DNA of 64,000 bases from Buxus sempervirens (taxonomy: Eukaryota > Streptophyta > Magnoliopsida > Buxales > Buxaceae), in contig OX387190.1 in assembly GCA_947561395.2 (NCBI GenBank), positions 14,130,858 to 14,194,857 of the forward strand. Reading direction: 5' to 3'. The notes under the pieces are model-generated. The model searched no databases. It was not told where the DNA came from and was given only the letters and a program-made list of their open reading frames with translations. Shown piece by piece: positions 24,254 to 64,000 of this stretch. Position 1 is the stretch's first letter. Every line of letters begins with the position of its first letter. Made by a program: the position numbers and the translations under genes.

Positions 24254-24300
24254 CCCGCATTTTTAATGCGGACTTGTGGTGACCCCATTTAATATGCGGT
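24254..24300 (+). promoter_or_regulatory. Class 2 palindrome pair in solo LTR a
   Basis: Sites at 24254-24272 (CCCGCA-N7-TGCGGA) and 24282-24300, starts 28 bp apart, about 180 bp upstream of the TATA box. The sister LTR A' has class 1 sites at the equivalent place. Confidence 0.7.
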
Positions 24301-26069: not shown

Positions 26070-26902
26070 GCCCCCTCACCCCCATTTTGAAAGAAGAGGA
26101 AGAAAAAGAGAGAAAGGAGAGGAAAGAGAGAGAGAGAGAGAGAGCTCTGCCCTGTCACCCCCCCTGCCTTTCCAACTGCTTCCCAAACATCTGAACCTTA
26201 CCCTGCTCACCCAAACCCCTGCCAAATCTTGTTTTGCTCTTGAGGGCATTCTTTTTGTCTGTTTCTCCCTTCTAACCTTTTGAAAACCAAAAAATCAAGG
26301 GAGGAGCCAAGGTGTTGTCAACGTTAACCGGAGTACCTCCACATCTCAGAACAAGGTAGGTGAGCTTTTTTGTTGATTTTATTTGATATATATGAGAATC
26401 CAATTGCTTAAAGCAAGATTCTTCCTTCTTGTGATTTAAATCTTCTCTTTTGTTGTTATGATCTCACCTGTTTTGCTTCCTGTGCATGACATGTGAGCTC
26501 TCATGGTGAGAGAGGCTCACATATGCGAAAAGATGGGAGGAGAGAGGTTCCATGTAAAGTAAAGAGGCTCCTTTTAACATTTCTGTTCTAACTCTTTTTA
26601 TGCCCATCTGATCATCGTATTTTAGGAGGGGCTTGTCCTCCTTTAAAAAATCTCTTGTAGCCTTAATATCGTCCCCTCTTTCCTTTCATTATAGTTGGTT
26701 AATATTCCTCCAAGGAAGGATTGAGGTCATCGACATTTTCAATGTAAGCAACCCCACGAAAAATGCAATTTTTGGACAGAGTAGCAGATTTGAACCACTT
26801 GGAGGTGCTGGAAAATACCAGCAGAAGTCGGTGGACGGCGAAAAGGAACCGGCAAACCAGATCTGGCCGGAATCATAGCATTTTTTGGGAAATCAGACTG
26901 GA

Positions 26903-27005
26903 ACCGTGCTTTTAGTGCGGTTCAGGTGTGACCGCACTTTATATGCGGTCAGGCCTGAACTGCATTAAATATACGGTTCAGTCCCGACCGCATAGTAAAT
27001 GCGGT
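26903..27005 (+). promoter_or_regulatory. Second class 2 array in LTR C, downstream of promoter
   Basis: Four 19 bp sites start at 26903, 26931, 26959 and 26987, exactly 28 bp apart. The core is CCG-N11-CGG with 11 bp between cores (one half is ACTGCA), so half-sites fall every 14 bp. The array is about 830 bp downstream of the TATA box, the same arrangement as in LTR D. Confidence 0.75.
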
Positions 27006-27781
27006 CATATTTGTAAATAGCTTAAAAAATTAATTTTTCGACCTTGTTGGACCCAATCCGACCCGATTGAACTTCACCTGAACCCATTGGGCTTTTGGGT
27101 CACCCCGATCCCGTTTTGAGACTATGGGCCCATCAAGAATTTGTGGGCCCACCAATGGGGCCCGTGTTTAATCTGGCCCAACCAAGGTCCGTTTTGATAA
27201 ATGGGCTAATGGCCACATGATTAATTGCCCTTGGGCCAAATCCAAACCCATTGGGCCCTAAAAACTTTAACTCACTAATTTTGTAAATATTTAATCAACC
27301 TTTAAACCAAATAGTCAAATCCAATAAGGGTTACCCAATAACCCGAATTGAGCCTTGGGCTTGACTTAAGCCAAACTTAGATTCCACTGGGCCCTCCAAC
27401 GCGGCCCATACCAGACCCACTTCATTAATTGATAAAAAGATAAAATCAAATAAAAAGGGGACCCACACCATCAACGGTCCCCACCAGACCAAATAAGTGT
27501 GCATGCTGGCCTAGGAGTTGGGTGAGAACTAAGTTGACTCTAACCAAGGAGACCCATGGGACCTGTCAATTGAAGGGGCGGGCTAGGGTGTTTTCGGACT
27601 TCCCTAGACGTAACCGAGAAATTGCTCAGATCTCTAATAAGCCGCAGACCAGGATAATTAGGCCCGAAAGGTGCCCTTTTGTGTTTGCCTGCACCTCTCA
27701 GGCAGTGGCGACTCCAAACAAGTCCCGAGGCATGCATCATTTTGCATGCGCCTTGCGTGCGGCTGAAATCGGGTACGCACA

Positions 27782-40488: not shown

Positions 40489-41277
40489 AGTGTTTTGCTG
40501 CAAAATTTGAAAATTCCGAGAGTTTTCACTTTTTTTTACTGTTTTACCTCTGTTTAAGAGGTGGGAATTCTCGAATATAGCCTTAGGGTTAAGTGGGAGG
40601 ATTCTAGACACATCCTTGTGTCTACCATTAGGCCACCCCTTGCCCTAGCCGTTGCCTATAAATAGGAGGTCTCTCCTCAAGCAAATGGCCATAAGTTGGA
40701 GATTAAAGAACTCCAAGTGAAGAAGGGAACCGCTGCCGCATTGCTCCCAGAAATCCAGGTAAGCCTGGAACCCTTTTTACTTTTCTGTTTTTAAATTCTA
40801 GGGTTAGTTTCCTCTTCTCCCTTCCTTTAAAGTAAGGCCTGATTGTGATTGAAACCCCATTCCCTATTCAAAGTACCTCAAGACTATCTCTAGTCGTAAA
40901 ACGTGAAGAGAAAGCTAGGGGAAACGAGAATGGGAATGAAACCTAGTTCTAGAACCCCCATTTGATTAAATGTTATATGTTGTGATGTATTGATGAATAT
41001 TATGTATTTTGCTTCGTTTTCTGGAGAGAATACCATGGTCCATGCTCTTTATAGCATTGGATCTCCATTTTCTCCTAAAAGATGATTTTTCACACATGCA
41101 CACATCTCACTTGTTTTGATGGAATAGGCTTTTATTTTGGATCTATCGTATTCATTATGATAGATCTGAGATAAGTGGCCTTAGATCAAGCTTTTTTTAT
41201 GATCCTTGAATGGATTTTAGATCTATCGTATTTATTTTTTTATTTTTTATTGTTTTTTATTTTTTTCATTTTAAAGA

Positions 41278-42022
41278 GTTGTTGGAATATTTTAGGGCTT
41301 CCAACATGTCCCACAAGATATGAAATTGGTTGGTACGAAAAAGACCATCAAAAAGTTATTGGAATATTTTAGGGCTTCCAACGTGTCCCACAAGATATGA
41401 AATTGGTTAGCACGAAAAAGGCCATCCAAAAAGTTGCGGAATATTTTAGGGCTTCCAACATGTCCCACAAGATATGAAATTGGTTGGCACGAAAAAGGCC
41501 ATCCAAAGAGTTGTTAGAATATTTTAAGGCTTCCAACATGTCCCACAGGATATGAAATTGGGTGGTACAAAAAAGACCATCCAAAAGTTGTTGGAATATT
41601 TTAGGGTTCCAACATGTCTCACAAGATATGAAATTGGTTAGCACGAAAAAGGCCATCCAAAGAGTTGTCGGAATATTTTTGGGCTTCCAACGTGTCCCAC
41701 AAGATATGAAATTGGTTGGCACGAAAAAGGCCATCGAAAGAGTTGTTGGAATATTTTAGGGCTTCCAACATGTCCCATAGGATATAAAATTGGGTGGTAC
41801 GAAAAAGACCATCCAAAAGTTGTTGAAATATTTTAGGGCTTCCAACATGTCCCACAAGATATGAATTGGGTGGTACGAAAAAGACCATTCAAAGAGTTGT
41901 TGGAATATTTTAGGGCTTCCAACATGTTCCACAAGATATGAATTGGGTAGTACGAAAAAGACTATCCAAAGAGTTGTTTGAATATTTTAGGGCTTCCAAC
42001 ATGTCCCACAAGATATGAATTT
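41278..42022. repeat. Tandem repeat, about 77 bp, ten copies
   Basis: The unit contains GGAATATTTTAGGGCTTCC and CCACAAGATATGAAATTGG. Copies start near 41284, 41361, 41438, 41516, 41593, 41670, 41748, 41824, 41902 and 41979, spacing 76-78 bp. The antisense frames at 41369-41888 simply read through the repeat. It sits at the junction between truncated LTR A' and the M4 internal region. Confidence 0.88.
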
Positions 42023-42198
42023 GGAATTAAGGCTTCCAAAGCCTCCTGAAATTACACAGGCTTTCAGGAGCCTATGAAGGGTTCTAGAATCACGCAAGCT
42101 TCTAGGGGCTTATGAAGATAAAGATATGAAATTTCAGGCTTTTAGAAGTCCTATGAGTTTATAAATTAAGGCTTTAGAAGGCCTATGAGGTTAAAAAT

Positions 42199-42330: not shown

Positions 42331-44282
42331 TTTTATTTTTGTTTTTTTTCCTTTTTTTTTTTGACTTTTGATTTGATTTTTTTCTTTTCTTTTTTTTTTT
42401 TTGTTGTAATTTATTATTCAAGAACAAAATTTTAAATTGAATTGTTCTTATCAAACTTTGGAGATTAAAAAAAATGATTTGAAATTATTTTCCCTAATTT
42501 TTCCATTAGATTGCACTTTAAGAATGTGTTTTGCAATATTGATGTGATTTGAGGTTCTATTAAAGTGTATTTTGATTCAAACACATTTTTCTTTATCACT
42601 TCCACTCTTTGAGTTAAGTTACATGTTCAAATTAGGTAAAATTTCCTAAAAAGCTTAACCCTTTGATTTGAGTGAGTTCAGAAGAATTTGGATGCTATTT
42701 ACTCTTATTGAAGTGTTTATCATCTTTTATATCACTTAAATCTGACCGCAAAGAAAGTGCGGTCAAGCCATGTCCGCAAATGAAATGCGGTCAGGCCATG
42801 TCCGCAAATTAAGTGCAATTTACGGACGGAATTTCACTGTTCTTGTTTTCCAAGTGATTTAATGAATTTGATTACACATCCAAACATAGGGTTCACCATT
42901 GACAAGCTTCTAAACTATCCTAAAGTGGACGTTGACACTATATTTACAAAAAAGAAAAAGAAAAAATGAGGGCACATGTTCCCTCCAAAATCAAACACCA
43001 TATTCATGAATTTTGAACTTTTGGTTACCTCCTACATGGATTTTGGGTAGGATGACTTCTGAGCAGAGTTTAAAAAACTCTTCCTATAGGCTACAGCAAT
43101 CTTAGGATACAAATCTCATTGGGAAAAATTCCATCCCAAATACATGGACACCATGGCACTTACTTTACATGATATGAAGATAATTAAGAAAACAATGATA
43201 TCACTTTGTTACCTTGTGTTTACCTTCAATATGGCATTCATATCATACCTGGGCCTTGTGAATCATGCAACCGGCATTCCCTTAATTACAAACCCATTTC
43301 CCCATCGTAATTGTTTACTTTAGCTAAAAACGTGTTACTCCACCTTCAAGAGTAAGGGCTTTGGGTTTTGGCTTAATGGCAACTTAGATCTCAAGCCTAG
43401 TGATGACCAGAATCAAAGATCCATAATTTCATCACATCATTAGCTCAAAGTTCTAAGGTGAATGTTTTCATTTTCACTTTCCGAAGTAACCACCTCGTTG
43501 CGCCAAGCTACACACATTCGGGTTCAACTTCCTATAGGTAAGGGCAGGCTGTGTAAAAGATTTAAAGTGCTCAAGTGCATTTGAAATAAAGATGCATTCA
43601 CAACGTCCCAAACCCTTGCCACTCTTTTTCGTAGCCAAGCACATTTTTATTCACAAACCAAGGCAGATATGACATCATATTGGAAATAAATAAACACAAG
43701 CAAACAAGATATTAAAACACCTAAATATGCTCATGACTTTTATATACCCAAAAATATCACACAAGCATGTTATCATATTGTACAAAAATAATTAATCATG
43801 CCAAACATGCTTAAAAACCCCAAAATACCCACTAAATTCCTAGATTTCATGCTCATAATTTTTATGTTCAAAACATAGCATTAAACCCCCAAATCAAAGC
43901 ATGTCATAAAAAAGTAAAGCAATTAATCATATTGTACAAGAAAGAATTGTTCATGGAAAACATGCTTGAAAACCCCAAAAATATCCACTAAACTCCTAGA
44001 TTTCATATTCTTAATTTTCATGATTAACTCATGGCATTAAAAACCCAAATTAAAGCATGTTATCACAAAATACAGCAAAATCATGTTACAAGATAGGCTT
44101 CCCTTAAACATATTTCTAGACATAATCAAGCAACATATACATGCCTTATCTTCATGAGTCTTCTAATAACACAAATCAGATTTAAAATACATCAAACATA
44201 TCCAAATGAAATAAACAAAATAGCAAGCATTCAAAATAAAACAAAACATGAACCAATACAAAACATGGCTTAAATCCACTAG
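42331..44282 (-). other. 5' internal region of element M4
   Basis: This lies downstream of the M4 primer site on the minus strand. I see no coding frame with domain motifs. It holds an internal class 2 array and TATA box (42725-42819). Homopolymer tracts lie at 42330-42410. The expected gag-pol is missing, so M4 is truncated near the tandem repeats. Confidence 0.5.
42725..42819 (-). promoter_or_regulatory. Internal promoter of M4 with class 2 sites
   Basis: Class 2 sites start at 42745, 42773 and 42801, 28 bp apart. On the minus strand they precede GATATAAAAGATG at about 42723-42735. The M4 LTR also carries class 2 sites. The transcript would run left in the sense direction of M4; the gene it served is lost. 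Confidence 0.6.
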
Positions 44283-44303: not shown

Positions 44304-46133
44304 TGTGAGACATGGAAAATCAATTCAATGACTTTCCTAAATCATCCCATGGGCTCAATAAAAAAAGGAGGAGTCGCCACCATTCCTTTTTAAGGTGTGA
44401 ATGGACACCAAAAATAATCAAATAAAATAAATAATAAAAAAACAAAATTAGAGTAAAAATAACTCTAATAAAAAATAAACCAGAGATAGATAAGGAGACT
44501 AGGTTATGAACAGGGGAAGGTGTTAGGCACCCCCATTCATCCACACAAGGTGGTTGCCAAGTATTGCTCATGTTTTAAAAAGTCTTGCTAATAAAAATCA
44601 AATCAAAAGTGAAAGAAAAAGCATAAAAAAATGTATGGCTTTTTCTATATGAATGATCCAATTAATTCTGGATCCATCTTATGAATACACCATTTCTTGG
44701 CTTCATGATTGACTACAATCAAGGCAAAGAAAACAAACTAAGATGAAAAATATCAAAAAGGGGAAGTTTAGACTGTAGGATCTTCTCAGAAAGATTAAAA
44801 CCTCTTTAAATCTGCCTTATGATGTTGAAAAATTAATCTGAACAATTCTAGGGTACAAATCAAGTCCAAACCTCTCATTAATTGAGAGATATAAACTAGA
44901 TACACCCATGTGGATGAAAATCATCAAAAAGGGAGAGTTTAAACCATAGGATCCTCTCTCAAAATTAAAAGTAACAAAAAAATCATCTCATGGTATTGAA
45001 AACAAATCTGAACCATCTAGGGTACAGATCTGGTAATGATTTCCCATTGGTTGAGAGATCTAAAACAGATTCACCCATTTTAATGAAAATATCAAAAAGG
45101 GAGAGTTTAGACCATAGGATCATCTCTCAAAAGCTAAAATAATTCAAAAAATCACCTCATGAAACCTAAGAGGTTGCTTTAAGGCTTCTGATTTCAAATA
45201 TACCATATTGATCATGATAGACCCAAAATCCTAGTCTAATAACAAAAAGACATCAAAAAGGAGAAAATAATGTAAAAACAACACTTTAGGAGGAAAATAA
45301 AATCTAATGCTATGAATAGCATAGATCCATGGTATTCCTCCATATTTCAACAATAAACAAACACATAGCCTAAATAAAGTATTAAAAATACAAAAATCAA
45401 AGATTATAACACTTAGGGGCCTATCCTACGGGTCCATTCCTGTCCTCCTTTCCCCTAGAAATCTCTTCACGTTTTACGGCTAGAGAAGATACTCGAGGTA
45501 CTTGGATTTAGGTTTGGGGTTACAATCACATACAGGCCTTATTCTACAAGAAAATAAAAGAATAGATTAATCCTAGAAATTAAAACAGAAAAGAAAAGAA
45601 GCTTACCAGGATTGCAGAGAACAAAGAGGTAGAGGTTCCCTTCTTCACTTGGAGCTCTTCAATCTCCAACTTTTGGCACAATTCTTAGCCACAATTTTCA
45701 GCCATTTGCCTAAGGAGAGGCCTCCTATTTATAGGCAAGAGCAAGGGCAAGGGTGGTCCCATTAGGTTCTAGAATGTTCCAATTCAGTTTTAGCAACATG
45801 GGTTTGAGTAAATATGAGAACCAATGAGGGGTAAAAAAGGACGGATGAAACCCTAGAGAGAGAGGTAAAAAATAGTAACAAGGCTTCAAGAAAGAATTTT
45901 TACGAAAACACCCAAACTACGCGTGACCGCATTTGAATTGCGGACATGCCTCATCCGCATTTTCAATGCAGTCATGCAATGTCTGTAGATCAAATGCGGT
46001 CAAGGCCTGTCCACATACCAAATGCAGACAAAATAGGTTTGATCAATTTTTCATCTTTTTTGACCTGTTTCAAATCCCAATTAAATATTTTTCTTTATTT
46101 TTTCACCCTGTAGTGCAATTTGGGGTGTCTACA
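44304..46133 (-). mobile_element. 5' LTR of element M4
   Basis: On the minus strand it starts TGTAGACACCCC at 46133 and ends TTTTCCATGTCTCACA at 44304; 1.8 kb. TATA is at 45724-45734. The conserved blocks GTGTTAGGCACC, GGTGTGAATGGACACC and the primer-like GGCGACTCC lie near its end. Three copies of an AGGGAGAGTTTA-type repeat occur at about 44758-45130. Its right flank cuts the antisense gene leader of P3. Confidence 0.88.
45926..46028 (-). promoter_or_regulatory. Class 2 array of M4 LTR
   Basis: Sites start at 45926, 45954, 45982 and 46010, exactly 28 bp apart, about 190 bp upstream of the TATA box. The last two are decayed on one side. Confidence 0.78.
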
Positions 46134-46735
46134 GTTGCCGGAGTCAAAGGAAATCGTCGAAGAGAATGGCCGATGTTGGAGAAGAAGAGGTTAGGGTCCG
46201 ATGTTGTCTTTCGGAGAAGAAGAGAATGAGTTTAAGTCGCAGTCGCACGCACAAGTAATATACTCAGGTTTATCCGACAACTTATTTCGGATACAAGCAA
46301 GAGTTCGCATATCCGAACATCTTTTTCGGATACAAAAGAAAAAATAAAAAAAAAAGAAAAGAAGGAAAAAAAGGAAAAAGAAAAGAAGAGAGAGAGAGAG
46401 AAAAAAGAAAAAAAAAGGAAAAAAAAGAGAAAGAAGAAAAAATGTTGGCCAAAGGAAATATTCAGTCAATTTTTAAGGTAATCTGACGTGATTTGCTGCA
46501 AACTCAGTTTTTTTTCAAAAATCTTATATGTTGGTCTTGAGTTCCACCTCATAGCCATGAGAGCTTAGTGGAATTTAAGACAGCTTGGAGAAATGCCCCC
46601 CTTAAAGTTAGGGCATTTTGGCAAATCTCCACCCAAAATTGTTTTGCAAAATTAAATTGAACAAAGCAAGTCATGGTTAAGGGGGTACAATTGGGTTTGT
46701 CTAATCTTTGCTGCTCATTGTTTTGCAATTCTAGC
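46134..46735 (+). other. 3' internal region of element P3 with antisense gene leader
   Basis: This is the end of the internal region before the P3 polypurine tract. On the minus strand it holds the promoter and first leader of an antisense extra gene, which M4 cuts at 46133. The block AGCTCTCATGGCTATGAGGTGG (in reverse context near 46540-46570) is also found next to the M2 and M1 tracts. Purine-rich low complexity fills 46336-46445. No intact coding sequence remains. Confidence 0.6.
46230..46334 (-). promoter_or_regulatory. Antisense gene promoter of P3, class 1 sites
   Basis: Class 1 sites at 46269-46295 and 46308-46334, 39 bp apart, with the arm TTCGG also seen in the P3 LTR. Downstream on the minus strand come a TATA-like GAGTATATTAC and GCGTGCGACTGCGACTT, a block shared with the gene A promoter. 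The leader after it is C/T-rich. Confidence 0.7.
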
Positions 46736-46748: not shown

Positions 46749-46807
46749 TGTAGACACCCCAAATTGCACTGTAATCGGCCAAAAGCATTAAAAAACAGTT
46801 TTTCTTT

Positions 46808-46951
46808 TGTAACCGAAATCAAAGTTCGGGTAAAAGTTCTTCTCTTTGTATCCGAAAATAGATTTTGGATACACACTTGTTTATTTGTATCCGAAATATT
46901 ATTTCGGATACAAAGGTTTTTGTTTGTATCTGACCTGAGTTGTCGGATACT
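46808..46951 (+). promoter_or_regulatory. Class 1 array of P3 LTR
   Basis: Four sites start at 46808, 46847, 46886 and 46925, exactly 39 bp apart. The arm subtype is CCGAA/TTCGG, except the last, which has CTGAGTT in the centre. The array ends about 180 bp before the TATA box. Confidence 0.85.
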
Positions 46952-47502
46952 AATGTTTTGTTGCAAATTGGAAAATCTCGAGAGTTTTCACTTATTTACT
47001 GTTACACCTCTGTCTGAGAAGTGGGAATTCCCGAATTTAGCCTCCGAGATTAGCCTTAGGGTTAAGTTGGAAGATTCTAGACACATTTTTGTGTCTACCA
47101 TTACGGCTCCCTTTGCCCTAGCTCTTGCCTATAAATAGGGGGCCTCTCCTCAAGCAAAGGGTTGAGAATTGAAAGCTAGGAGAGCTTCAAGAGAAGAAGG
47201 GAACCCCTGCCTCTCTGCTTGCTCAAATCCAAGTAAGCTTTCTTCCTTTTTTATTTTTTGTTTTTTTAAATTCTAGGGTTAGTCTTATCTTCTTCCTTTC
47301 TGTAGAATAAGGCCTACTTTGTATTTGTAACCAAACCTGTCTCTAAGTACCTCAAGACTACTCTTTAGCCGTAAAATGTGGGAGAGAGCTAGGCGAAAGG
47401 GGAACAGGTGGATCCGTAGGATAGACCCCTATGTGTTGTAATCATCCCTTTTTATTATTATAATGCTTTGTTTATGTTATGTGACTATTTATTTCTGTAA
47501 TA

Positions 47503-48080
47503 TGGAGGAATACCATGGATCTATGCTGTTCATAGCATTAGATCCCATTTTCCTCCTAAAGCATTGTTTTTATTGTTTTTATTTTATTTTCTTTCTTTTG
47601 GTTATTAGGCAAGGATCTTGGATCTATCATGGTCAATATGGTAGATCTGAGATCAGAAGCCTTAGAGTAACCTGGTTTCAAGAGGTGATTCACACATGGA
47701 GGAATACCATGGATCTATGTTGTTCATAGCATTAAACCCCATTTTCCTCCTAAAGCATTGTTTTATTGTTTTTATTTTATTTTTTTCTTTTGGTTATTAG
47801 GCAAGGATCTTGGATCTATCATGGTTAATGTGGTAGATCTGAGATCAGAAGCCTTAAAGTAACTTGGTTTCATGAGGAGATTCACACATGGAGGAATACC
47901 ATGGACCTATGCTGTTCATAGCATTAGATCCCATTTTCCTCCTAAAGCTTTGTTTTTATTGTTTTATTTTATTTTATTTTTTTTGGTTATTAGGCTAGGA
48001 TTTTGGGTCTACCATGATCAATATGGTAGATCCGAAATTAGAGGCCTTAACCTCCAGGGTCTCCTGCGATGGTTTTTCAA
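47503..48080 (+). repeat. 193 bp tandem repeat inside P3 LTR
   Basis: Three copies starting TGGAGGAATACCATGG at 47503, 47697 and 47889. The frames at 47463-48132 follow the repeat and are not genes. Confidence 0.85.
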
Positions 48081-48897
48081 AGTTGTTTTAATCTTTGAGA
48101 GAGGATCATATGGTCTAAACTCTCTCTTTTGATGTTTTCGTTATTAGGCTAAGATTTCGGGTCTATCATGATCAATATGGTAGATCTGAAATCATAATCC
48201 TTAAAGTAACCTCCAGGGTTTTATGAGGTGATTTTTTGAGTTTTTTTTTCATCTTGGAGAGAGGATCATATGGTTTAAACTCTCCCTTTTGATGTTTTTC
48301 ATCAATACGGGTGTATTGGGTTCAGATTTTTCAACCAATTAATGAGAGATCTGTACCCTAGATTGTTCAGGATTAATTTTTCAAAATTTCTATTTTATTT
48401 TTTATTATGCAGTTCTAAGATTTCATGGATTTAACCTAAGGCTAACTTTCTAGTTTTGCTTTATGATTATTTTTATTGATGTTTATTTTGAACATGAAAC
48501 CCTCGAAATGGCATATTCTTATGAAGGGTCTTGAATTAATTGGGCCATTCATACAGAGAAAGCCATACATTTTTTATTATTCTTTTTCCCTATTTTTAAT
48601 TTGATTTTTTAGCAAGCCTTTTTCAAAACATGAAAAATATTTGGCAACCACCTTGTGTGGATGAATAGGGGTGCCTAACACTTTCCCCTATTCATAACCT
48701 AATCTCCTTACCCATCTCTGGTTTGTTTTTTATTTTTATTTTAAATAGAGTTATTTTTACTCTAATTTTCCTCTTTGTATTTTATTTAATTATTTTTGGT
48801 GTCCATTCACACCTAAAACTGAATGGTGGCGACTCCTTTTTTTAATTGTGCCCGTGTGATGATAGGAAGTCATTGAATTGATTTTCCATGTCTCACA

Positions 48898-50953: not shown

Positions 50954-53369
50954 TGTGAGACATGGAAATGTGTCATCTAGGATGACTTCCGATATCGTCA
51001 CACGGGGATCAATAAATGTTATGAGTCGCTACCATCCATCTTAAGGTGTGAATGGACACCAAAGGGTTCATAGAAGCCAAATAGAGCCAAAGTAGCTCTA
51101 AGACAAGGAAAAATCCAGAGATCAGGTAAGGGGAATTATTTATGAGTGGGGGAAGGTGTTAGGCACCCCCACTCATCCGTCTAAGACGGTTGCCACATGC
51201 TTGCTCATGCTAAGGATTGTTTGCTAATCAAAATAGACAAAGGATGCTTAAAGTAAGCAAAATGTAAGTGATTATTCCACATGAGTAGTCCAATGAGTTT
51301 AGACTCTCCTCATGGATATATCACTTTAGAACTTCATGAGTGAAGGAAAATCCAAGTAAAATTTGAAGCAAAACCAATTCAAAGCAAATCTGGAAAAATC
51401 AGATTATGAGAACTTGAAAGCTTCGATTAATCATAACTCACTCAATTTAAATCCAAATCCAATGAAACCAAGTCATTTGAAAACTGGTATATAGTAGAGT
51501 ATACAGTAAAAATTTCAGCTCAATCCGATTTAAAACGAGAGAGAAATCCACATCTGAAATCTGCTGTTATAACTCGGAAAAAGTGGTGAGTAGGCATTTT
51601 CAAAGTCTTATTCGTGGAGTTTGGCTCAATAAAAATCCATGAAAATTTGCATGGAAGAAGTATGTGGTGCCATATTTCCAAAGAAATAAGTCTCACACCA
51701 AACTCTATCCGGATGTGGCTTGTGTGCTCTCTCAAACAGGCCTAGAAGACCACAGATTAGCTCTGGACTATGCCAGCGAGCAGCTCTGAGTCCATCAAGC
51801 ACACAGGCCTCAAATCAAATCAAAATCTGCTGAAACTAGTTGGAAATGAAAATAGACTTCTCAAGGAAAACTCAGCAACTGAAATCACTCGAAACGGATT
51901 AAAACTGAGCAAATGGTGCACCATCAAAGCGGCAAGTTCAGCAATCTGGGCTGAACTGACTTACAGGCTTTGAACAGATGGTGTCAAAACTTGGCTCCAT
52001 AAAAGTAAACGAAATTTTCCAGATATAAACTAGACATGCTCATCTATCACATTTCTTTGGAATCACTCAAAATTTCATCCGGAGGATGAAGTTATGAGCA
52101 TTCTAAGACAGGCCACGGATGCTACCCTGTTTTGAAGCTTTTCGAAGAGAAAACCAAAACTAGTGTATGTGTGCAAGTGAATTCGACCAAAACACTTGAA
52201 AATCAACAAAAACAATCTCATGAAGTTCTAGAATTCATTCTGAAGCCAATAATTTCAGATTTCCCGTATTAAACATGGAAATCAAAGATCTAGCTTATTT
52301 GATGAAAATGGTGAAAAGTGTGTGAATAGGTGGAAATCCATTCTCTAGGAGAAGGCTGGAATCCATTGCCATTGAGAGCAAGGATTCACACAATTTCTCC
52401 AGAAGCAAATGCATAAACATCAGAAAAATCATCCATAGGCTTAAAATAACCAAATAGCATGCTCTTCATCACTTGTAGGTTCTAAGCCTAGAGGATCCAT
52501 TCCTACTTCTTTTCCCAAGGCTCTCTCTTCACGTTTTACGGCTAGAGAGGATTCCCAGGTACTTTGGAAGAGGTTTGGGGCTTCAAAAATGTACAAAAGG
52601 CCTTACACTACAAAAAGGTAGAAGATGAGAGTGTAAATGTAAAGGAGAAGCAAGAAATGTAAAAAGAGCTTTACCTTGGTAGCTTGAGTACTTGAGTGGA
52701 CAATCCAGCAGAGTTCCTCTTCTTCTTGCAGAGCTTTTATGCTTCAAATTGCCAGCCCTTTGCAAGAGGAGGACCCCTCTATTTATAGGCCAAGCCAAGG
52801 GTAGAAAGGTCCCAAGGGTAGGCCTAAAAACTCTTCTAGATTATTCCAATTCTCCTTGAAGGTTTGAATTGGAGTAATTTAGCAAGTTTCGGAGGGTGAA
52901 ATAGGGAGTTCAAGTCCCTGAGATAGAGGTAATATGCGTAAATAAGGCTCAGAGATCGAGCAATTTCGCAAATCCCCGAAACAGCCAAAACCGTATACAT
53001 AGTGCGGTTTCCACAGAACCGTCACTATATGTGCGGTTTCTATGTAAATTCACCTCAACCGCACATACAGGGCGGTTCCAATTCAGTTACGCTCGCCATG
53101 ATTTCTGTCGACGTGTCCCAACAGTCGAAGCTTCCGGAAGCCACGTGGCAGCTCACGCGATAAGCATGAACATCAACCGTGCTGTGTATGCGGTTGCAAC
53201 CGTACATACAGGGCAGTTGAGACCAAATTCTCAAAAACCACACATTCAGTACGGTTTGCACCATTTTGGAGTGTTTTTGAGTGTTTGACACATGTCAAGG
53301 CTCAAATAAAACATTTAAAGTTTTTTTTTAGGGTTCTCTTATATTGAGGTGCAATTTGGGGTGTCTACA
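50954..53369 (-). mobile_element. 3' LTR of element M1
   Basis: On the minus strand it starts TGTAGACACCCC at 53369, preceded by a polypurine tract, and ends TTTCCATGTCTCACA at 50954; 2.4 kb. TATA is at 52779-52789. It is related to M2 and B across the body but has class 2 palindromes. Confidence 0.9.
52990..53255 (-). promoter_or_regulatory. Class 2 cluster of M1 LTR
   Basis: Sites start at 52990, 53018, 53058, 53176, 53199 and 53237. The centres vary (TACATAG, ACATACAGG and others) while CCG and CGG or close variants are kept. The register is less regular than elsewhere, and one site has a 12 bp centre. They lie 200-470 bp upstream of the TATA box on the minus strand. Confidence 0.7.
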
Positions 53370-53382: not shown

Positions 53383-53715
53383 CACTGGAATTGGAATCAA
53401 TTAACAGCGGAGAGCAAAAAGACCCGCAAATTGCACCTCCCAAGATCACGTCCATTCAATCATGAGCTGCAAGAACTCCAAAACATGATTTTTGAAAAAG
53501 AATTTGTGTAGAAGATCTGATGAAAAGTCCCTAGCTTAAAGGGGCAGATCCTCTTCTCGCGTCCCATAGAGCACTCGTGGCTATGAAGTGAGATTTGAGC
53601 AAATTTTTAAAACAAAAGTTGATAGGGTGGTGTTTCTTGCAATTCACGACTATCTTGGACATAAATCTTTTGAAAGAGATTGGAAAAAGTTTTGAAATTT
53701 CATTTTTTGGTGCCA
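53383..53715 (-). other. 3' internal region of M1
   Basis: Noncoding. Contains a CTCGTGGCTATGAAGTG block shared with the M2 and P3 tails. Confidence 0.5.
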
Positions 53716-53845
53716 ACCGTACTGAATATGCGGTTTTTGACAATTTTAATACCAACCGTTCTGTTTGTGCGGTTTTTGACTATTTTAATACCAACCGTTC
53801 TGTATGTGCGGTTTTCTAGGTTGCATATAATCGCGACCGCGACCG
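53716..53845 (+). promoter_or_regulatory. Antisense gene promoter of M1, class 2 sites
   Basis: Class 2 sites start at 53716, 53755 and 53794, exactly 39 bp apart (the class 1 spacing with class 2 sequence). They are followed by GCATATAATCGCGACCG, a TATA box overlapping the start of the conserved GCGACCGCGAC block. Element M2 interrupts it at 53846, so the gene itself is not visible here. Confidence 0.72.
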
Positions 53846-56140
53846 TGTGAGACACGGGAAAAATCACCGGGATGATTCCCCCTCCGTCAGCACACGGGGC
53901 TCAACGTAAAAATGGGAGAGTCGCCACCATTGAGATTTTTGGGGTGTGAATGGACACCAAAAGATTCAAAAATATGCAAAAAGGGCTAAAAGGCAAATTC
54001 TAGAGTAAAAATAACTCTACTTGAAAATCAAATCCAGAGATGGGTAAGGGGATTAGATTATGAATGGGGGAAGGTGTTAGGCACCCCCATTCACCCACAC
54101 AAGGTGGTTGCCAAGTGTTTGTTCATGCAAAAAAAGTAAGAAAGCTTGCTAAAATCATTGAAACATTGAAAAAGAATTAAACAAATGTGTGATATCTTCA
54201 CATGAGAAATCCAAATGGATTCCAAATCCTCTTTTATGTCAATATCACTTCTGTAATATCAACGAGAAATGGAAATTAAAGCAAAGATTGCACAAAACCA
54301 AATTGAATCAAATCCGGAAAATTCGGTAAAAGATAATGCCATTTGTCTTAAAATCATTCAAATCCAATTTTAAATTAAATCAAACCAAATCCATTTGAAA
54401 GATTATGGTAAATAAGAGTCTCATGCAAAATTTCAAGTAAATCTGGTTGAAATCCTAGAAGTTATGCCTCCTTTAAAGTTGCTGCTGGAGATAATTAAAA
54501 GTGGTAAGTGGGCAAGTTTGGAAAATCACCTAGAAACATCCACTCCATAACAATCCACGAAATTTGGTGTGATTGAAGTCTGTATGGCCATCTTTCAAAC
54601 GAAGCTAGCCTCATACAAAAATTCATTCGGATGTGCCTTGGGTGGTCTCCCGAACAGGCCCCGAAGATCACAGATTTACCCAGAAAAGTATTGATGAGCA
54701 GTTCTGAATAAATCTGTTACCAATAATACAAATGGAGTTACAAAATTATGAAACCAACTGGATTTGAAAATAGACTCATAAAGGAGTGCCCAGAATTAAA
54801 AATCACTCAGATCGGATTTAAAACGAACACATGGCACTCCGTCGAAGTGACAAGTTTCGTATTTAAACCTGAACTGTCCAATCAACTTCGACAGAGAGGT
54901 GTCAAAAATCCGCTTTATAGAAATTAATAAAATTTGGTAGGCATAACCTAGACAGCCTCACCTTTCCCATGGTTCTGGAATCACGCCCAAATTCATCTGG
55001 ACGATGAAGTTATGAGTGTCCAAAGTAGGGGTACAGTTGCTGTCAAATTAAGACTTTTTTGAACAAAACCAACTCAAAACTGTGATAAAGTGTGTGTGAT
55101 TCGTGCAAGATGAATCCAAATCTTTTAAAAACCTTTTAAAAATATTCCAGAATTGATTGAGGCCATTTATTTCAGATTTATCACAATAAATGTAATAAAC
55201 CCAAAATATGAGCCTATCCCACCAAAACGGGTGCATATGTGTAAGTGAAAATCATTCAAGAACAATATAACAACATAGCATGCATTCATATTCATCAAAA
55301 TAGGTTCTAAAAAACAACCTAGGGTTCCGTTCCATTATCGTTTCCCTTAGTTCTCTTTCCCCGTTAAACACGGTTCTTCAAGATAATCCTGGGGTACTTT
55401 GAATATGAAATGGGCTTCAAAGATTCAAAAGGCTTTATTCTAAATAGATTCTAGTACTAGGGTCAATCCCCAGTCTCATTTCTCGTAGATCCCGCCTTCA
55501 CGTTTTACGGCTAGGTGGAGTCTTAAGATACTTTGAGCTGGGGAAGGATTTTCATACACACAAAAGGCCTTATTCTACAGAAAGGTAGAAGAAGAGATCT
55601 AGATCTAGAAATGTAAAATAGAAAATAAAAGATAAGTTTGGGGCTTACCTGAGTTCTGGAGGCAATTCCGCAGCGGTTTCCCTCTTCACTCGGAGCTCTT
55701 CTTGGCAGAGATTCTTGGCAAGAATTATTGGCAAGAGAGTTAATTGCCATTTGCTTAAGGAGGAGCCTCCTATTTATAGGCAAAGGCTAGGGTTAGGGTT
55801 GGTGAGAATGGTAGACACAACCTAATGTCTATAGCTCACCAACCTTAACCCTAAGGCTATTTCCGAGATTTCCCCTCATTTAATGAGGGACATGATGGTA
55901 AAAGATGAAAGCTCTCAGAAAACCCTAATTTTGAGCAAAACTAGTGTATCCGGTATGTCAGGCCGGATACACAAGTACCTTAATGTATCCGGCCTATGAT
56001 GCCGGATACACTGAGGTCTGATTGTATCCGGCCTGAGTTGCCGAATACAAGGAAAAAACTCATTTTCTCAAATTATGTGCTGGCCTTCAAGGAGATGATG
56101 ATTATTGATCATTTTGACAGTGCAATTTGGGGTGTCTACA
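53846..56140 (-). mobile_element. 3' LTR of element M2
   Basis: On the minus strand it starts TGTAGACACCCC at 56140 after a polypurine tract and ends CCCGTGTCTCACA at 53846; 2.3 kb. TATA is at 55769-55780. Its body is close to solo LTR B. The left flank is GACCG in the M1 antisense promoter, so M2 is younger than M1. Confidence 0.9.
55945..56049 (-). promoter_or_regulatory. Class 1 array of M2 LTR
   Basis: Sites start at 55945, 55984 and 56023, exactly 39 bp apart, arm subtype CCGG/CCGG. The 56023 site has the centre CCTGAGTTGC. Confidence 0.85.
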
Positions 56141-56153
56141 ACTGCCCCTCTTT
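56141..56153 (-). other. Polypurine tract of M2
   Basis: AAAGAGGGGCAGT on the minus strand abuts the LTR. Confidence 0.85.
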
Positions 56154-56652
56154 GCGGGAGTTGCGAAGCAATGAGCTGCAAAGATTAGACAAGCCCAAAT
56201 TGCACTCCCTTAACCTTGATTTGCTTGGTTCAATTCAATTTTGTAAAAATAATTTTTAGGTGAAGATTTGCCAAAAAGCCCTAACTTTAAGGGGGCATTT
56301 CTCCAAGAATTCTTAAATTCCACTGAGCTCTCGTGGCTATGAAGTGGATTTTAAGCCCAAAAATAGGTTTTTTGAAAACTGATTTTTTGTCAAATCGAGT
56401 TGAAAATTGAGTGGATATCTTCCTTTTTGACCAACACATTTCCCAAAGTTGTCCTAAATTCCACTGAGCTCTCGTGGCTGTGAGGTGGATTTTATGGCAA
56501 AAATAGGATTTTGTGAGAAAATAGCTAACTTTGCAGCGCATTTTTTGCTTTCTTTTTTTTTTCTTTTTTTTCTTTTTCCTTTTTTCCTTTTCTTTTTTCA
56601 TTTCTTTTTCTCTTTTCTCCTTTTTTTCTCTTTTTTTTTTGTTTTTTTCTTT
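56154..56652 (-). other. 3' internal region of M2 between tract and antisense gene
   Basis: Holds the conserved block CTGAGCTCTCGTGGCT twice (about 56321-56345 and 56465-56488), related sequence around each, and a T-rich low-complexity stretch (56546-56650). No coding sequence. Confidence 0.55.
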
Positions 56653-56733
56653 TGTATCCAGTGTATCATACCGGATAAGGCAGGGCTCGTGTGTGTCCGG
56701 CCTGGTTCACCGAATACACAAGGTTTTATAAAG
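56653..56733 (+). promoter_or_regulatory. Promoter of antisense gene A
   Basis: Class 1 sites at 56653-56679 and 56692-56718, 39 bp apart, then TTTTATAAAG (56724-56733) and GCGTGCGACCGCGACTT just downstream. The same arrangement occurs in P3 and M1. Confidence 0.75.
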
Positions 56734-58078: not shown

Positions 58079-60836
58079 ATGGCTAGGAGTTGTTCCCGTG
58101 TTCAAGAGGAGGTTGATCCAGCTGATCGGCCCTCTTCGTCTCGAGCTCGGATTGAGACGTGTTCTAGTGCTACCCTTTCGGAGCCTCTAGAGGATTCCAG
58201 AGAGAGCTCTACTGAGGGTTCTACTGAGGTAGACTTTCAAATCCTTTCTCTCTTTTCTTCCTTCTATTCTCTTTCCCACACCACCTTCACACTTCTCCTT
58301 TGAACTTTAGCCCGCTGTTGCTCCTGCTCGAGGTCGGGGCAGAGGCCGAGGCAGAGTTCGGGATCAGGCCCCTGAGGGTGAGGGAGGCCGTGGCAGAGGC
58401 TGAGGCCGAGGCAGAGCCAGAGGTGCGGCTCAGGATGGTGCTGCTGTAGCTTTGTCAGGGATCTCTGCGGAGCTGAGAGCATCCGTTCATGATACAGAGC
58501 TCCTTAGTGGTTTGGATAGTCACCCCTCCATGTGCATCAGGGCCGATGTGCCTCTTCCATATCATTCTTCCCATTTGCGAGGCAGTTGGGGGATATTTAG
58601 TGAGTTAGCTCAATCGCTTTCTCCGGCACTCAGACGCGAGTTTGGGAGGTGCCACTTGGATTATTTCCTTAGCATCCCATCGTTCAGAGCCGACCGTCCA
58701 CTCATCTTCGCCATGATGGAGAGATATTTTCCGGACGCAGTCATTCCATCTACCGGACGTGGAGCTGGGGATCCGCCCCTCTGACTTTGTGATGATTACT
58801 GGTATTCCTTTGACGGAGCGGACCATCATCTTGGATTAGCCTTCTGCGGAGGACATCGGCCTCCTTCTGGGATATCAAGACCTGCCACCTGCTGCTTGGG
58901 ATGGGCGGAGTGGTCGTCTCTCCATTAGTTGGTTGCGGGAGAGCCTGACTCGTCATTACGGAGGGAGATATGCGACTGTCGCTGTGGAGGACGCAGCCTT
59001 TGTACCTATCTTCCGGCATGTTTTCCTGCTGATGCTCAGGAGCTGCTTCTTCCTGGAGGATACGACCAGCGTCAGCCCGCTTTTCTTGGATGCTCTGCGA
59101 GATTTTCATCAGACCCGCCAGCTAGCATGGGGTCGACTCATCTATGGGACCATCCTGGCCGGGTTGTGCCGAGTGGTTCGAGGCCTGGCATCCCCGAGAG
59201 GTGATGGAGTCAGCTGCCGGTTCTTCTGGCAGATCCTGCAGGTATTAAGTTGTCTTGTCTCATTCCTTGGGCTTTATCTTCCTTTATTTCTGACTGATTT
59301 TTCTTTTGAAAGGTGTTTATGTACACCTATATGACCTACTTCTGCCCGTCCCCAGTACCTGGTGTCGCAGAGTTCCTATGGCTTTGCGGTGGTCGGCCCA
59401 GGTCCGAGATGCTGATAGGAGTCAGCCTCGCACTGCTCGGGTGCACTTGGACCGTGCCTGACGATCTGACGTAAACTCTTTACCCTCTTTCCTTTTATCT
59501 CTTTTCCTGCACCTTGACTGTATTTGACCATTTTCCTTCTTTGCAGCTCATCCTGGCCTGCTTTAATGACGTGGATGTTGAAGTGGCCCATGAGATGGCA
59601 GTACAGGATGCCTTTGATAGAGATCTCTGCCGTCAGCCCTACCAGTGCTTCCTTGGGAGGCTTGGTAGGGTGATGTATTTGGGAGAGCGCCTGTACTTCC
59701 AGCACACAGGCACACTTCGCATCCCCGTTCCCCTTCCTCCTGTGGGTCCCGACACGCTCCTGCCAGGCTTTGATGTTGATCAGTTTGATCATTTCCAGGA
59801 TGCGGAGGAGCTCACAGTAGCTGGGGATTACGATGAGTGGATCCAGAGAGTATCCATTGGGTGCTTGATGGATCGGCCCACTCGTGCCGGGGTGACCAAG
59901 ATTGGCGGGATCTTTATCAGGATCCATGACGACACGGTGAGTCTGGTGCTCTTTATTTTTCATCCTCTTTCCTTCAATCCTGTATTTCTGATTCTAATTT
60001 TGTGCTTATTGGCAGGTACACGAGCTGAATGCTGTGCGGGACCGGTTCCTGAGCTAGCGGGCCGCGATCGAGGATATGATCGCTGAGCATGATGCGGTCG
60101 TGGCCTAGCGGGATGCTAGGATCAGAGAGCTGGAGGCTCTGGTTGCTGAGCTCCAGGCTAGACAGGTATCTGGTTTTCTTGTAATTTCATTTCTTTCATT
60201 TCTATGATTCTGCTATTCTGATATGCCTGCTTGACTTTTGCAGGGCCCGGTCCCAGATCTGGAGCCTGATTTCCCTGTACCTGGTCCATCTCCGGCTTGG
60301 GCTGGTAATCCCGAGGATGCCCCAATTGCTGATCCTGGTGATGCCCCACCTACTGATGCCCCAGCTGCTCCTGCGGATGCCCTGGCTGCTCCTTCATCTC
60401 CAGTGATGGTTCCTGAGCCGGAGGACATCCTTGCTGCTGACCCAGTGGAGCCGGATCCCCCAGTTCCTGCTGTAGATATCCCTGGTATGTTTTCTTTGAT
60501 TTTCCCTCTTTGGTTCATCTTGATATCTCAATTTATGATTTTTCCCCATTTGGCACAGATATTTCTGCTCCTGGCCCTTCTTCTGATGTTGTCGGGCCTT
60601 CTGGATCTGCCGGTCCAGTCGAGCCTGCACGTGCTGAGCCCGAGGCCTCTTCTCCAGATTCTGCTCCGGATCCACCTCCAGACCTTTTAGAGTATTGCTT
60701 GGAGTATCAGATCCAACAAGTGGTGGGTCGGCTTCCTCGCCATGCTACCGAGCGTATTCTGGCATACTCTAGGTGCCGATCACCTCGAGGGAGAGGCCGT
60801 AGAGGAGGACGCGGGGATGATCCTGCACTGGACTAG
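58079..60836 (+). pseudogene. Gene A: plant mobile domain (PMD) extra gene, multi-exon, decayed
   Basis: Likely exons: 58079-58228, 58311-59241, 59313-59470, 59547-59936, 60016-60165, 60244-60484, 60559-60836, each bounded by GT/AG. Exon 2 opens with Arg-Gly repeats, then the PMD-type region with F-x-P-x-V-E-L-G, D-F-V-M-I-T-G-I-P, L-L-G-Y and a long hydrophobic helix (58600-59241). Exon 3 keeps an A-L-R-W-S motif in a shifted frame. Exon 5 encodes a coiled coil, exon 6 D-A-P-rich repeats, and exon 7 another Arg-Gly tail. Lesions: TGA at about 58411, frameshift near 58735, TAG near 58839, a shift in exon 3, and two TAGs in exon 5. It runs antisense to element M2. PMD proteins are nuclear and linked to transposon silencing or come from transposons; the role here is unknown. 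Confidence 0.75.
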
Positions 60837-61017: not shown

Positions 61018-61179
61018 TGTATCCGGTATATCAGACCAGATACATTGAGTTTTCTTTGTATCTGGACTAATATGCCGGATACGCTTAAAACTTTTTGTAT
61101 CCGGCATTGTTCACCGGATATGAATAAATTTCCTTGTATCCGATCTGATATGCCGGATACATTAAAACATGCTATAAAT
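61018..61179 (+). promoter_or_regulatory. Promoter of gene B, four class 1 sites
   Basis: Sites start at 61018, 61057, 61096 and 61135, exactly 39 bp apart. TATAAAT at 61173-61179 begins 12 bp after the last site. The spacing from array to TATA is like that of LTR D and D2. Confidence 0.8.
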
Positions 61180-61288
61180 GCAACCAGCCTCGGGATTTGC
61201 ACATTTTTACGAGTTTTTGAGTTTAGAAAACCCCCTTTTCGCCTTTTTCTTCCTCCCCTTGAGTTCTAGCTTGCTCCCATCATCTCTA

Positions 61289-62799
61289 ATGGAATCCGGA
61301 TCATCTTCTGCCTTACCATTGTCTGTCCACACGGCCTCCCCTGCAAAACAGCCTTTTAGATCAAAACCACCTAATCTTACTAGGTATAATCTCATGGACT
61401 CTTTTTATAATAGATGGGTTAATTCTATGACCCTGGATGAAGAGAGGAGATGGGATTCCAACCATCTAGGCCATATTTTGCTTATCCCGAAGGTTCCCTT
61501 CAAGTGGGAGATTATTGAAGCCATGATTGGCCATTGGGTACCCGACCTCAACTTTTTCCGTTTTGGAAACCATGAGATGACCCCGACCATTGAGGAGGTG
61601 GAAACTATCCTGGGCTTGAGGTTTGATGAGAAGGTAGTGAATCCACCCCTTAGGCCCAGCTACAAGAAGGATGCTTCTACTTTCCTGGGCATAGGGAAGA
61701 AGGATTTGGGGGATTCTGACACCCTTCTGACCTTGTCCAAATCTTTTTTGACTGAGAAGCTCTTGAGGGGGGAGAATAAAGAGGCTAGGTTCAATGCCTT
61801 GACCCTGATAGTGGTCAACCAATTACTTTTTCCCCGAGATGATGATGAGGTAGACTTGGCCTTGATCTCAGTTATATGCCAGGTTAGGGAGCGGGATAGC
61901 TTGGCTCCTATGATTTTGGCGGAGATGTATCAGACTTTGACTGACTGCTACAACAGGAAGTCGAAACGCTTCTTATCATGTGCCCCTGTCCTGCAGGTAA
62001 TTCTTTCGCACCTCTTTTTTTTTTGCATTTCTTTTTTTTGCTATTTTTTCTTCTTTTTTGCTTTTACAATATACTAAAAAATCCCTCCTCCTTTACAGCT
62101 TTGGCTACTTGATCAGCTGAGTCAGATTGAGGAAATCAATAGGCATTTCTTCCCAAGCTTGAAAGTTCCTATCTTGATGAGCAACCGGGGGTGTCCCGAC
62201 ATTCCAGGGTTGGTTTACTTTCTTGGGTTCACTCCAGGATGATCAGGTGAGGTAGCCTGGTACCTATCAGCCCAATGCAGAGACCGTGATCAGCTTCCGA
62301 GACCGTAATTTTCTGATTCTGGCTGGCCTGAGACATGCGGTGCTTTACCTTCCTTTACGGGTCCTTCGTCAGTTCAGAGCGACCCAGGGGATTATAATCC
62401 CAAGTGGGTATGAAGATCATCTTGGGCCACTTTCTCCAGCTACCATGAAGCTGAATGCCTGGTTGATGAAGGAGTGGTCTTATGTTCGCTTTATGCGGGG
62501 CCTCGTCTTCTCAGAGTCCCATGTGAAGGACTATCTCTTTTGGATTAGGGAGCAGATACAGAGTCAGGCTTTAGTACCTGAAGATCCTCCTGCAGTCTTG
62601 GCTCCTACTTATGAGGACATTCTGGAGTCTGAGAGAGCTTCTCACAAGCGACTTCAGCAAATATGGGTACGAGAGGCCCAGGAGCTTAGGATACGAGGCC
62701 TTGACATGGAGAGGCAACTTGCAAAGCAGGTGTCCCGCCGTCTTGCTATGGAAAAGCAACTTGAGGAGCATAGGCAGGCTCGCTGTCTTGAAGTCCGAG
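61289..62799 (+). pseudogene. Gene B: DUF7745-like extra gene, cut by LTR D2
   Basis: Exon 1 (61289-61996, 236 codons) has F-R-F-G, T-P-T-I-E-E, an F-N-A-L-T-L-I-V-V segment and C-A-P-V-L-Q at the exon end. The intron is 61997-62098 (CAG|GTAATT to TTACAG). Exon 2 starts L-W-L-L-D-Q, with a TGA at 62239-62241 and a frameshift before about 62280. It then continues in another frame with L-R-Q-F and F-W-I-R-E-Q, and ends in a strong coiled coil (62600-62799). At 62800 LTR D2 begins, and its first bases supply the TAA that ends the frame. The family was recognised from motifs shared with the D pseudogene (1-908). It follows gene A in the same direction. Confidence 0.75.
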
Positions 62800-64000
62800 T
62801 GTAAGCACCTCATTTTTGCGCTCCCGAAAAAGCCGGAAATGCAAACCCTGGACAAAAAGTCAAACCCTGATGGGTCAAAAATTGACTTTTTGATCAAGTA
62901 AAAATTGGCCACCTTGCTTTATCTCATTGGATAGAGAATCCCGACACCAGTCCAACGCAACTGAGTTTGCTAGAATCGGAGTCCGGATGAAGGTTCTGTG
63001 GGCCGGTCAAGCTTGAAGGAGAGCCGAAAGTTGACTTTTCCTCGAACCCCATGCCAAGTGCTTAGCCCTATGTCATTGAGTAGCGGGCTCCGATACGAGT
63101 CTAACGCAATTGAGTTTGCTTAAATCGGAGTTCGGATGAAGGAGATATGAGCTGTCGAAGTTTCCGAGTAGCAAAACCGGAAACTGCACACGTGGTGCAG
63201 GAACTGCCCACGTGGCAGCCAACGCAGCAAAATATCTCAGGGACCAAATCTTAAATATCCAAAATTCACAGGGACCAATCCGTAGATATCCAAAAGTGTC
63301 AAATCGGTTGAATCGGTCAAGTCGAGGGGCAAATCCGTAATTTTTTTATTTGTATCCGGTCAAATATACCGGATACACATAGGTTTGTGTATAACCGGCA
63401 TCAAATACCGGATACAAAAAGATTTTCGCGCGAGATTCGCGCCGATTGCCCGACAAATTCGCGGCGGCATTTAATTTTCGGATGATTATGTTTTGTATCC
63501 GGCATTCAATGCCGGATAGAAAGGAACCTCTGTGTAACCGGCCATGGAGGCCGGATATGAAAAGAGCTTAGTGTATCCGGCTTGAGTTGCCGGATACATT
63601 AAGTTTGTCTATAAAAGGCAAACAGCAGCTCATTTCCGGGGTTGGCGATTTTTTTTGCTCTTCAGCTCTCTTCTGTCACCCATTCTCACTCGAATCCCTC
63701 ACTCCTCACCTCCCTTTGCCCACACCTCCACTCCACACCACCCCCAAGGGAAGCCCAACTACCTCTCCCCTTCTTCCTCTCCCTTTTGTGGCCACCTGGA
63801 GGAGGTGTACCTGCTGTAGCTGCCGGAGAAGGAGCTTCTGGTTGCTGTCCAGCTCTAAGGAAGAGCCTCCACATTGCCTAGAAGATCAAGGACCATCAGG
63901 TGAGGTTCCTAGTAGCCTTGTGCTGCACATATATTAAAATAAGAATTTTCTAAAATAAATTTTCAAGCTTGGTTTCATCCCTTGCATGAGTTTTTCTCTA
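62800..64000 (+). mobile_element. LTR D2, same family as LTR D, runs off the window
   Basis: Starts TGTAAGCACC, matching the minus-strand start of LTR D. There is no polypurine tract before it and the flank is gene B coding sequence, so it is a 5' or solo LTR inserted in gene B. The left flank is CCGAG. TATA is at 63610-63617. The sequence to 64000 aligns with LTR D down to about 14950. Confidence 0.88.
63351..63617 (+). promoter_or_regulatory. Promoter of LTR D2: five class 1 sites plus TATA
   Basis: Sites start at 63351, 63390, 63494, 63533 and 63572, spaced 39, 104, 39 and 39 bp, identical to LTR D. The last has the centre CTTGAGTTGC. TATAAAAG follows at 63610-63617. Confidence 0.85.

Follow-up and report, generated by a model that had tools for sequence, protein, structure and literature searches.

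Why does a retrotransposon carry the same class of operator in its long terminal repeat (LTR) and in front of a second, internal promoter? A 64-kb stretch at 14.13 Mb on contig 12 of a 676.5-Mb plant genome (hereafter the window) raises this question, as it holds nested LTR retrotransposons in which such pairs recur. The initial annotation had reported matched motifs in elements named M1, M2, P3, M4 and Copia S, names that we assigned to features by position, and had pointed to a factor dedicated to the element or to a shared repressor. We confirm that in M1, M2, P3 and Copia S the LTR motif recurs at the internal promoter, and find that the pattern extends beyond the window. Our comparisons suggest that Ogre/Tat-type elements bear one dyad class at both the LTR promoter and the promoter of an antisense gene, that this class follows the protein encoded by that gene, and that such elements may thereby encode their own regulator.

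Tat-type LTRs in the window start with TGTAGACAC and end with TGTCTCACA, and a GGGGCAG polypurine tract precedes the 3′ LTRs (Table 1). M1 is class 2 in both places, as annotated, with GTATCCGG/CCGGATAC in U3 and two decayed internal sites, one within one mismatch and the other, added by hand, with two. Its gene for a Plant Mobile Domain (PMD) protein is of the class-2 kind, three pieces being 72–87% identical to the class-2 PMD of locus L056. A reading of 53846–56140 as a 5′ LTR was discarded, since the termini and the polypurine tract beyond 56140 identify a 3′ LTR. M2 is likewise class 1 in both places, with AACCG/CGGTT arms in U3 and at three sites in the internal antisense promoter. The M1 LTR sits inside the M2 antisense core promoter (53845–53846), 32 bp beyond the last site of the M2 array, and the M2 antisense gene is thus severed from its promoter. 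For P3 the match between LTR and interior holds but the class 1 label does not: its outer arms group it with M1 rather than M2, even though AACCG appears at one of the four sites in its LTR. The M4 match is real but thin, as the element that is probably M4 has one LTR site and two internal sites with GACCGCA-type arms, the latter in a sense leader promoter. After its LTR (44304–46133) lies a sequence, TGGCGACTTCACTGGGGACC, that resembles a primer binding site, which in Ogre is reported to correspond to tRNA-Arg (PMC9289625); GGTGGCGACTC, a candidate for this role near the LTR ends, was rejected because its position is internal to the LTR. In Copia S both places share a motif peculiar to this element: at up to one mismatch, CGCTGGCAGCG occurs three times in each LTR, once before the TATA of the envelope-position gene and nowhere else in the 64 kb. 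The Tat motif CCG-N11-CGG was tried for Copia S and dismissed, with no occurrence in 2000–12700.

Table 1. Positions of LTRs, operator sites and genes of the paired systems in the window
Feature	Positions	Strand	Remarks
Copia S LTR, CGCTGGCAGCG-type palindromes	2567–3601	-	Other LTR 11599–12633, 99.3% identical
Copia S envelope-position gene, Transposase_32 ORF	4079–5473	-	
Copia S envelope-position promoter	5692–5723	-	TATATATA and one CGCTGGCAGCG at 5713, before TATA
Probable M4 internal array	42744–42792	-	Two sites, GACCGCA/TGCGGTC-type arms, period 28, upstream of TATA at about 42731
Probable M4 5′ LTR	44304–46133	-	One site at 45925 (GACCGCA..TGCGGAC)
P3 internal array	46272–46331	+	Class 2 with inner A, two sites, period 39
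P3 3′ LTR	46749–48897	+	U3 sites TATCCGAA/TTCGGATA at 46811–46948
M2 3′ LTR, class-1 Tat-type	50954–53369	-	Termini and adjoining polypurine tract
M2 LTR U3 sites	52989–53256	-	Class 1, AACCG-N11-CGGTT, five sites
M2 internal antisense-promoter array	53715–53813	+	Class 1, three sites, period 39, then CATATAA
M1 3′ LTR, class-2 Tat-type	53846–56140	-	Termini and polypurine tract
M1 LTR U3 array	55948–56046	-	Class 2 (ATCCGG; GTATCCGG/CCGGATAC), three sites, period 39
M1 internal antisense promoter	56656–56732	+	Two decayed class-2 sites (56656–56715) 39 bp apart, TATAAA at 56727
M1 antisense PMD gene	58079–59226	+	Broken into several frames
Class-2 array before sense PMD/DUF7745 ORF	61021–61179	+	Four sites (61021–61158), period 39, and TATAAAT; ORF 61178–62074
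Sense-PMD element, LTR start	62800–64000	+	Class-2 U3 sites 63354–63595, TATAAAA at 63610

To place these pairs in a wider sample we searched the genome for the 3′-LTR junction GGGGCAGNTGTAGACAC, which has 1766 forward and 1764 reverse matches and none in a reversed control. Seventy loci taken from the first 100 of the 3530 junction matches listed, all on contig 1, together with the four window junctions yielded 75 junctions (four in the window, two in L047). Three from L036–L038 were dropped because 300 bp on each side were identical to another, leaving 72. Trying spacers of 3 to 21 across these 72 regions, we identify the Tat motif as CCG-N11-CGG: 241 of 261 perfect palindromes have a spacer of exactly 11, and XXCCG/CGGX′X′ palindromes at all other spacers number 20 in total, with at most eight at any one. 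Only four of the 16 possible outer pairs (AT, AA, GC and GA) occur at N11, and we define classes by these two bases outside CCG, with AT as class 2, AA as class 1 and GC as class 3. The window itself has 21 AA, 31 AT and 2 GC hits against a chance expectation of 0.4–0.7 per class per 64 kb (ten first-order resamplings); with only two GC hits there, class 3 rests on the genome loci.

Array spacing goes with class. In class 2 all 20 internal intervals and 102 of the 106 in the LTR measure 39; in class 3 all nine internal intervals and 24 of the 27 in the LTR measure 27–28, and the remaining three are double (55–56). Class 1 intervals are 38–39 in 11 of 11 cases inside and mixed in the LTR (38 in 6 of 12). 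The 11 bp that separate the main periods of 28 and 39 correspond to about one turn of the helix, which would keep adjacent sites on one face of the DNA. Among 23 LTR units from seven class-2 lineages the arms are 90–97% alike and the spacer 42%, a contrast that is partly built in because sites were picked by their arms; in the same units three flanking columns that played no part in picking are also invariant.

The association between LTR and extra-gene promoter that the initial annotation proposed to check holds in the 3′-end regions surveyed. Taking an array as at least two sites of the same class, we find arrays on both sides of 31 of the 72 unique junctions, in the LTR alone at 32, in the interior alone at one and on neither side at eight. 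All 31 two-sided junctions match in class (6 class 1, 20 class 2 and 5 class 3), against a mean of 14.9 matches when internal labels are shuffled (p 0.0001, in a shuffle that ignores relatedness). M1 is left out of the 31, having just one internal site within one mismatch. In total the 72 junctions hold 85 internal and 238 LTR sites, compared with 2 and 5 in reversed sequences. When single sites anywhere in 1.5 kb are permitted, both sides have hits at 42 junctions, with the same majority class at 41, six of which depend on a single imperfect site located between −1199 and −1316. Unlike classes in LTR and interior, the pattern that would speak against the association, thus appear at no array pair and at one lone site, at −1029 in L033. 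Within 760 bp, one surplus internal site that resembles class 2 is present in each of the class-3 copies L061 and L067, and four class-1 copies have an additional GACCG dyad in the interior.

The correspondence reaches below the level of class, as the inner base also goes with it. Half-sites of an element's own LTR and interior are more similar than the overall comparison (0.785 versus 0.528, p 0.0001; nine representatives), and this holds within class 2 alone (0.835 versus 0.734, p 0.002; seven lineages including the sense-PMD element). In those seven lineages the next inner base covaries between LTR and interior (p 0.002). The first inner base is G in both places in L048, L013 and M1, A in both in L045 and P3, and mostly A in L066 and L020. 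In the sense-PMD element G prevails with a single exception, and L078 combines a mixed LTR with G in the interior.

What gene lies behind the internal array? PMD (PF10536) was detected in 10 of 10 antisense open reading frames scanned, covering all three classes, nine above the Pfam cut-off and that of L040 just below; these frames lie 1.9–3.4 kb from the 3′ LTR. It was the sole match, so that neither the Retand-type Transposase_28 nor a VANC/DUF1985-type protein appeared among the 10. By tblastn, PMD occurs in 11 of the 20 loci for which 4.5 kb of interior were taken (L039–L058). Each of the 11 has at least one internal site within 760 bp, ten of them two or more (L040 has a single one), and the internal class equals the LTR class in ten; the eleventh, L042, has internal class-3 sites and no LTR site at the stringency applied, so its LTR class is unread. 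The arrays lie upstream of a TATA box where one is recognisable, class-3 and several class-2 internal promoters having no clear TATA. Among loci without PMD, meaning none within 4.5 kb of the junction, no internal array was found in any of eight; the ninth, L047, was set aside because a nested element breaks it up. Two of the eight, L039 and L058, have one imperfect, distant internal site each. Another locus counted as PMD-less, L050, may not be an ordinary interior: a purine-transporter (PUNUT) coding sequence (L050:2144–3250), host-like, adjoins its Tat-type junction, which has one class-3 LTR site.

The protein follows the motif. PMD sequences are 87–98% identical within a class or subclass and 43–78% between. 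Within groups the mean identity is 96% for class 2 with inner G, 93% for class 1 and 87% for class 3; between groups it falls to 77% for the inner-A and inner-G forms of class 2, 67% for classes 1 and 3, and 44–53% for class 2 against the others, several of these cells resting on one or two pairs. No relative of PMD in the PDB was found by sequence at E values up to 1, so the fold does not by itself suggest DNA binding. The dedicated factor envisaged at the outset fits these data and gains a candidate, the antisense PMD protein, whose clade tracks the motif class; binding of the sites by this protein is the part of the proposal that we infer.

These matches are not independent events. In a tree of the 340 bp adjoining the polypurine tract, class 1 forms one clade (100/100) that joins class 3 (100/100), and short-U3 class 2 forms a separate clade (100/99) at whose base stand P3 and L045, both with inner A. 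So small a number of clades leaves few independent switches, and the co-switching check that the initial annotation had called for comes down to two or three of them. The matches rest on about three changes, namely class 2 versus 1/3, class 1 versus 3, and inner A versus G, so that class, PMD clade and all other inherited features travel together. The core promoter beyond the internal array, GCGACCGCGACTTTTCC with its neighbours, is common to classes 2 and 3 at 95% over 22 bp (BLAST, E 3e-5); class 1 has by eye a GCGACCGCGAC-like string after its array and 17–19-bp matches to class 2 further down. As the LTRs of M2 and M1 also align at 65% outside the arrays, both arrays seem to occupy orthologous positions and to have changed in concert.

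Other families in the same genome are less orderly. The long-U3 families (23003–25887 in the window, L025, L053, L060, L062 and L063) have LTR arrays at about +520 to +750, of all three classes, and in these families we saw neither an internal array near the 3′ LTR nor an antisense PMD. The window LTR that starts at 23003 is class 1 within the long-U3 class-3 clade and has no internal array in view, which goes against tidy inheritance. Variation of LTR class within this long-U3 cluster (L025 and the window LTR), where no antisense PMD was seen, counts against a regulatory loop through PMD. After LTR 23003–25887 the window has class-1/GACCG arrays at 25949–26066 and 26902–27006, with a plus-strand TATA at 26061. 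In the LTR family of L002:1283–2546 a second class-2 array follows the U3 array by about 1.1 kb and is possibly a leader promoter.

We propose, at about even confidence, that the PMD protein acts on both promoters, alone or with a host partner, in a dedicated regulatory loop. Each Ogre/Tat-type lineage would combine a dyad array in U3, an array of the same class at the antisense promoter and a PMD gene downstream of it. The PMD protein would recognise its own dyad class, probably in dimeric form and perhaps together with a host protein, and through the matched dyads would control both its own gene and the LTR. It would most likely activate both promoters or prevent their silencing. Dyad binding, dimer action and activation rather than repression are steps that we infer. 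The loop is the simplest account because the arrays lie upstream of TATA boxes wherever such boxes can be discerned, are matched in class, and on the internal side accompany the PMD gene. Copies that retain an LTR array but have no PMD gene of their own could use the protein in trans. L039 and L058, which belong to the class-2 LTR family, encode RT_RNaseH, RVT_3, H2C2 and rve in that order, with the additional RNase H between RNase H and integrase that marks Ogre/Tat elements; with pol present and no PMD in 4.5 kb, each retains four LTR sites. L046 resembles them in having integrase and RNase H at the 3′ end and LTR operators kept, with no PMD within 4.5 kb, and all three are possible trans users of another copy's PMD. 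More tentatively than for the loop itself, we suggest that element PMDs are sequence-specific DNA-binding regulators that read a CCG-N11-CGG core, with specificity in two outer bases and one inner base and a 28- or 39-bp spacing; they would form private loops that PMD-less relatives exploit, and the domesticated host proteins MAIN and MAIL1 may descend from them.

The strongest competitor, which we regard as a good deal less probable than the loop, is that one or more plant proteins bind CCG-N11-CGG, that each lineage has tuned both of its promoters to the same one, and that PMD does something else. LTR arrays in copies and families in which no PMD was seen in 4.5 kb agree with it, as does Copia S, whose own palindrome goes with Transposase_32 and not PMD. 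The palindromic repeated motifs (RMs) of Sireviruses are likewise arranged but accompany a different gene (PMC2829016). Against this, one genome holds several operator classes side by side and these follow the PMD clade, so a host factor would need class-specific forms. It is unlikely that the match arose by copying alone, through recombination or template switching that homogenises internal and LTR arrays with no shared factor selecting for it. The LTR and interior do reside in one RNA, and across all 11 spacer positions internal class-2 sites are nearer to their own LTR than to others of the same class (0.68 versus 0.54). Once inner bases are removed, however, the central seven spacer bases show no significant match within the element (0.63 versus 0.58, p 0.097, from few sites), while arms and inner bases carry the own-element match; arms are also kept between lineages and spacers are not. 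Copying is disfavoured on these grounds, within the limits of the few sites compared.

A shared repressor, the other explanation put forward in the initial annotation, has less to recommend it still: the dyads would be targets of repression, by a host protein or by a negatively acting PMD, and would match because the repressor is the same. The Arabidopsis PMD proteins MAIN and MAIL1 are described as involved in transposon silencing (PMC7156037), and autorepression also predicts matched sites. Retention of four LTR sites in the PMD-less L039 and L058 is easier to understand if the sites help, and for this reason we favour activation or anti-silencing by PMD, although these copies may be too young to have lost sites. 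Very improbable is a role at the RNA level, in which the palindromes would act as transcript hairpins in packaging or small-RNA production. The sites are inverted repeats, but classes 1 and 3 pair over only about five bases, the letters of the arms are conserved and not pairing alone, and the arrays are helically phased upstream of TATA-type boxes. Palindromic LTR structures have reportedly been discussed for maize Sireviruses.

Parts of this system are already known: PMD in Ogre elements, and antisense accessory genes with their own promoter (PMC6317226, PMC7264820, PMC11963269). PMD is reported in 57% of Ogre elements (PMC6317226) and associated with Gypsy elements and MULEs, its function being called unknown (PMC9289625); the portions of these two papers available to us describe no operator or LTR-shared motif for the extra ORFs. 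In Grande and Retand, too, an antisense gene lies between pol and the 3′ LTR, and for Grande an own promoter and a nuclear protein are reported. Retand antisense ORFs differ in being mostly Transposase_28 rather than PMD, and the accessible text on both families describes no LTR-matched operator (PMC7264820, PMC11963269). The closest layout is that of Sirevirus RMs, element-specific palindromes in multiple copies in the LTR, for which the authors suggest a regulatory role and which also occur in the linker of nine ENV-bearing elements, mostly upstream of ENV (PMC2829016). Copia S repeats this LTR and extra-gene layout with its own palindrome, although CGCTGGCAGCG lacks the CGG-CCG core of the RMs. 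Sireviruses are Ty1/copia elements with a sense ENV, CGG-CCG cores, short spacers and, in the excerpted account, no named factor (PMC2829016), whereas the Tat system is Ty3/gypsy of Ogre/Tat type, with CCG-N11-CGG, an antisense PMD gene and a class that covaries with the encoded protein.

VANC offers a comparable logic: this protein is encoded by the transposon and binds short motifs that recur in the transposon's own non-coding DNA. Related VANC proteins are described as having different motifs, which evolve with the protein (PMC5735166). VANDALs differ in being Arabidopsis DNA transposons with a protein of the VANC family and YAGTATTAY-like motifs in one orientation, and motif binding, proposed for PMD, has been shown for VANC (PMC5735166). 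MAIN and MAIL1 are host PMD proteins tied to a promoter motif, DOWN, which they may bind directly or via another factor (PMC7156037); they differ in being host genes. We found no report of class-matched operators in Tat/Ogre LTRs and PMD promoters in the open-access literature searched. Such matching predicts which copies respond to which protein and, if the loop is real, would provide a counterpart of VANC among retrotransposons and might explain where regulators of the MAIN/MAIL1 kind came from.

A further pair in the window belongs to an element of different architecture, in which a PMD in sense orientation, about 22% identical to the class-2 antisense PMDs, is preceded by a class-2 array (Table 1). 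The LTR start of this element has 3434 forward and 3502 reverse genome matches at up to one mismatch. In four other copies (L079, L080, L081 and L083) no site was found at −2000 to −1450; for three of them (L079, L081 and L083) the assignment as 3′ LTR or not was guessed from spacing. The sense-PMD class-2 pair thus stays a single case, which weighs against the loop. Its PMD exon has no relative at E 0.001 or better among 214 candidates in the protein database.

The window also holds a solo Tat-type LTR (37746–40242) of class 2 with inner A, flanked by a 5-bp target duplication, GTAAT. It interrupts another LTR whose intact counterpart lies at 23663–24210. A tandem array at 41273–42024 consists of 9.7 copies of a 77-bp unit, with a higher-order period of 232 bp.
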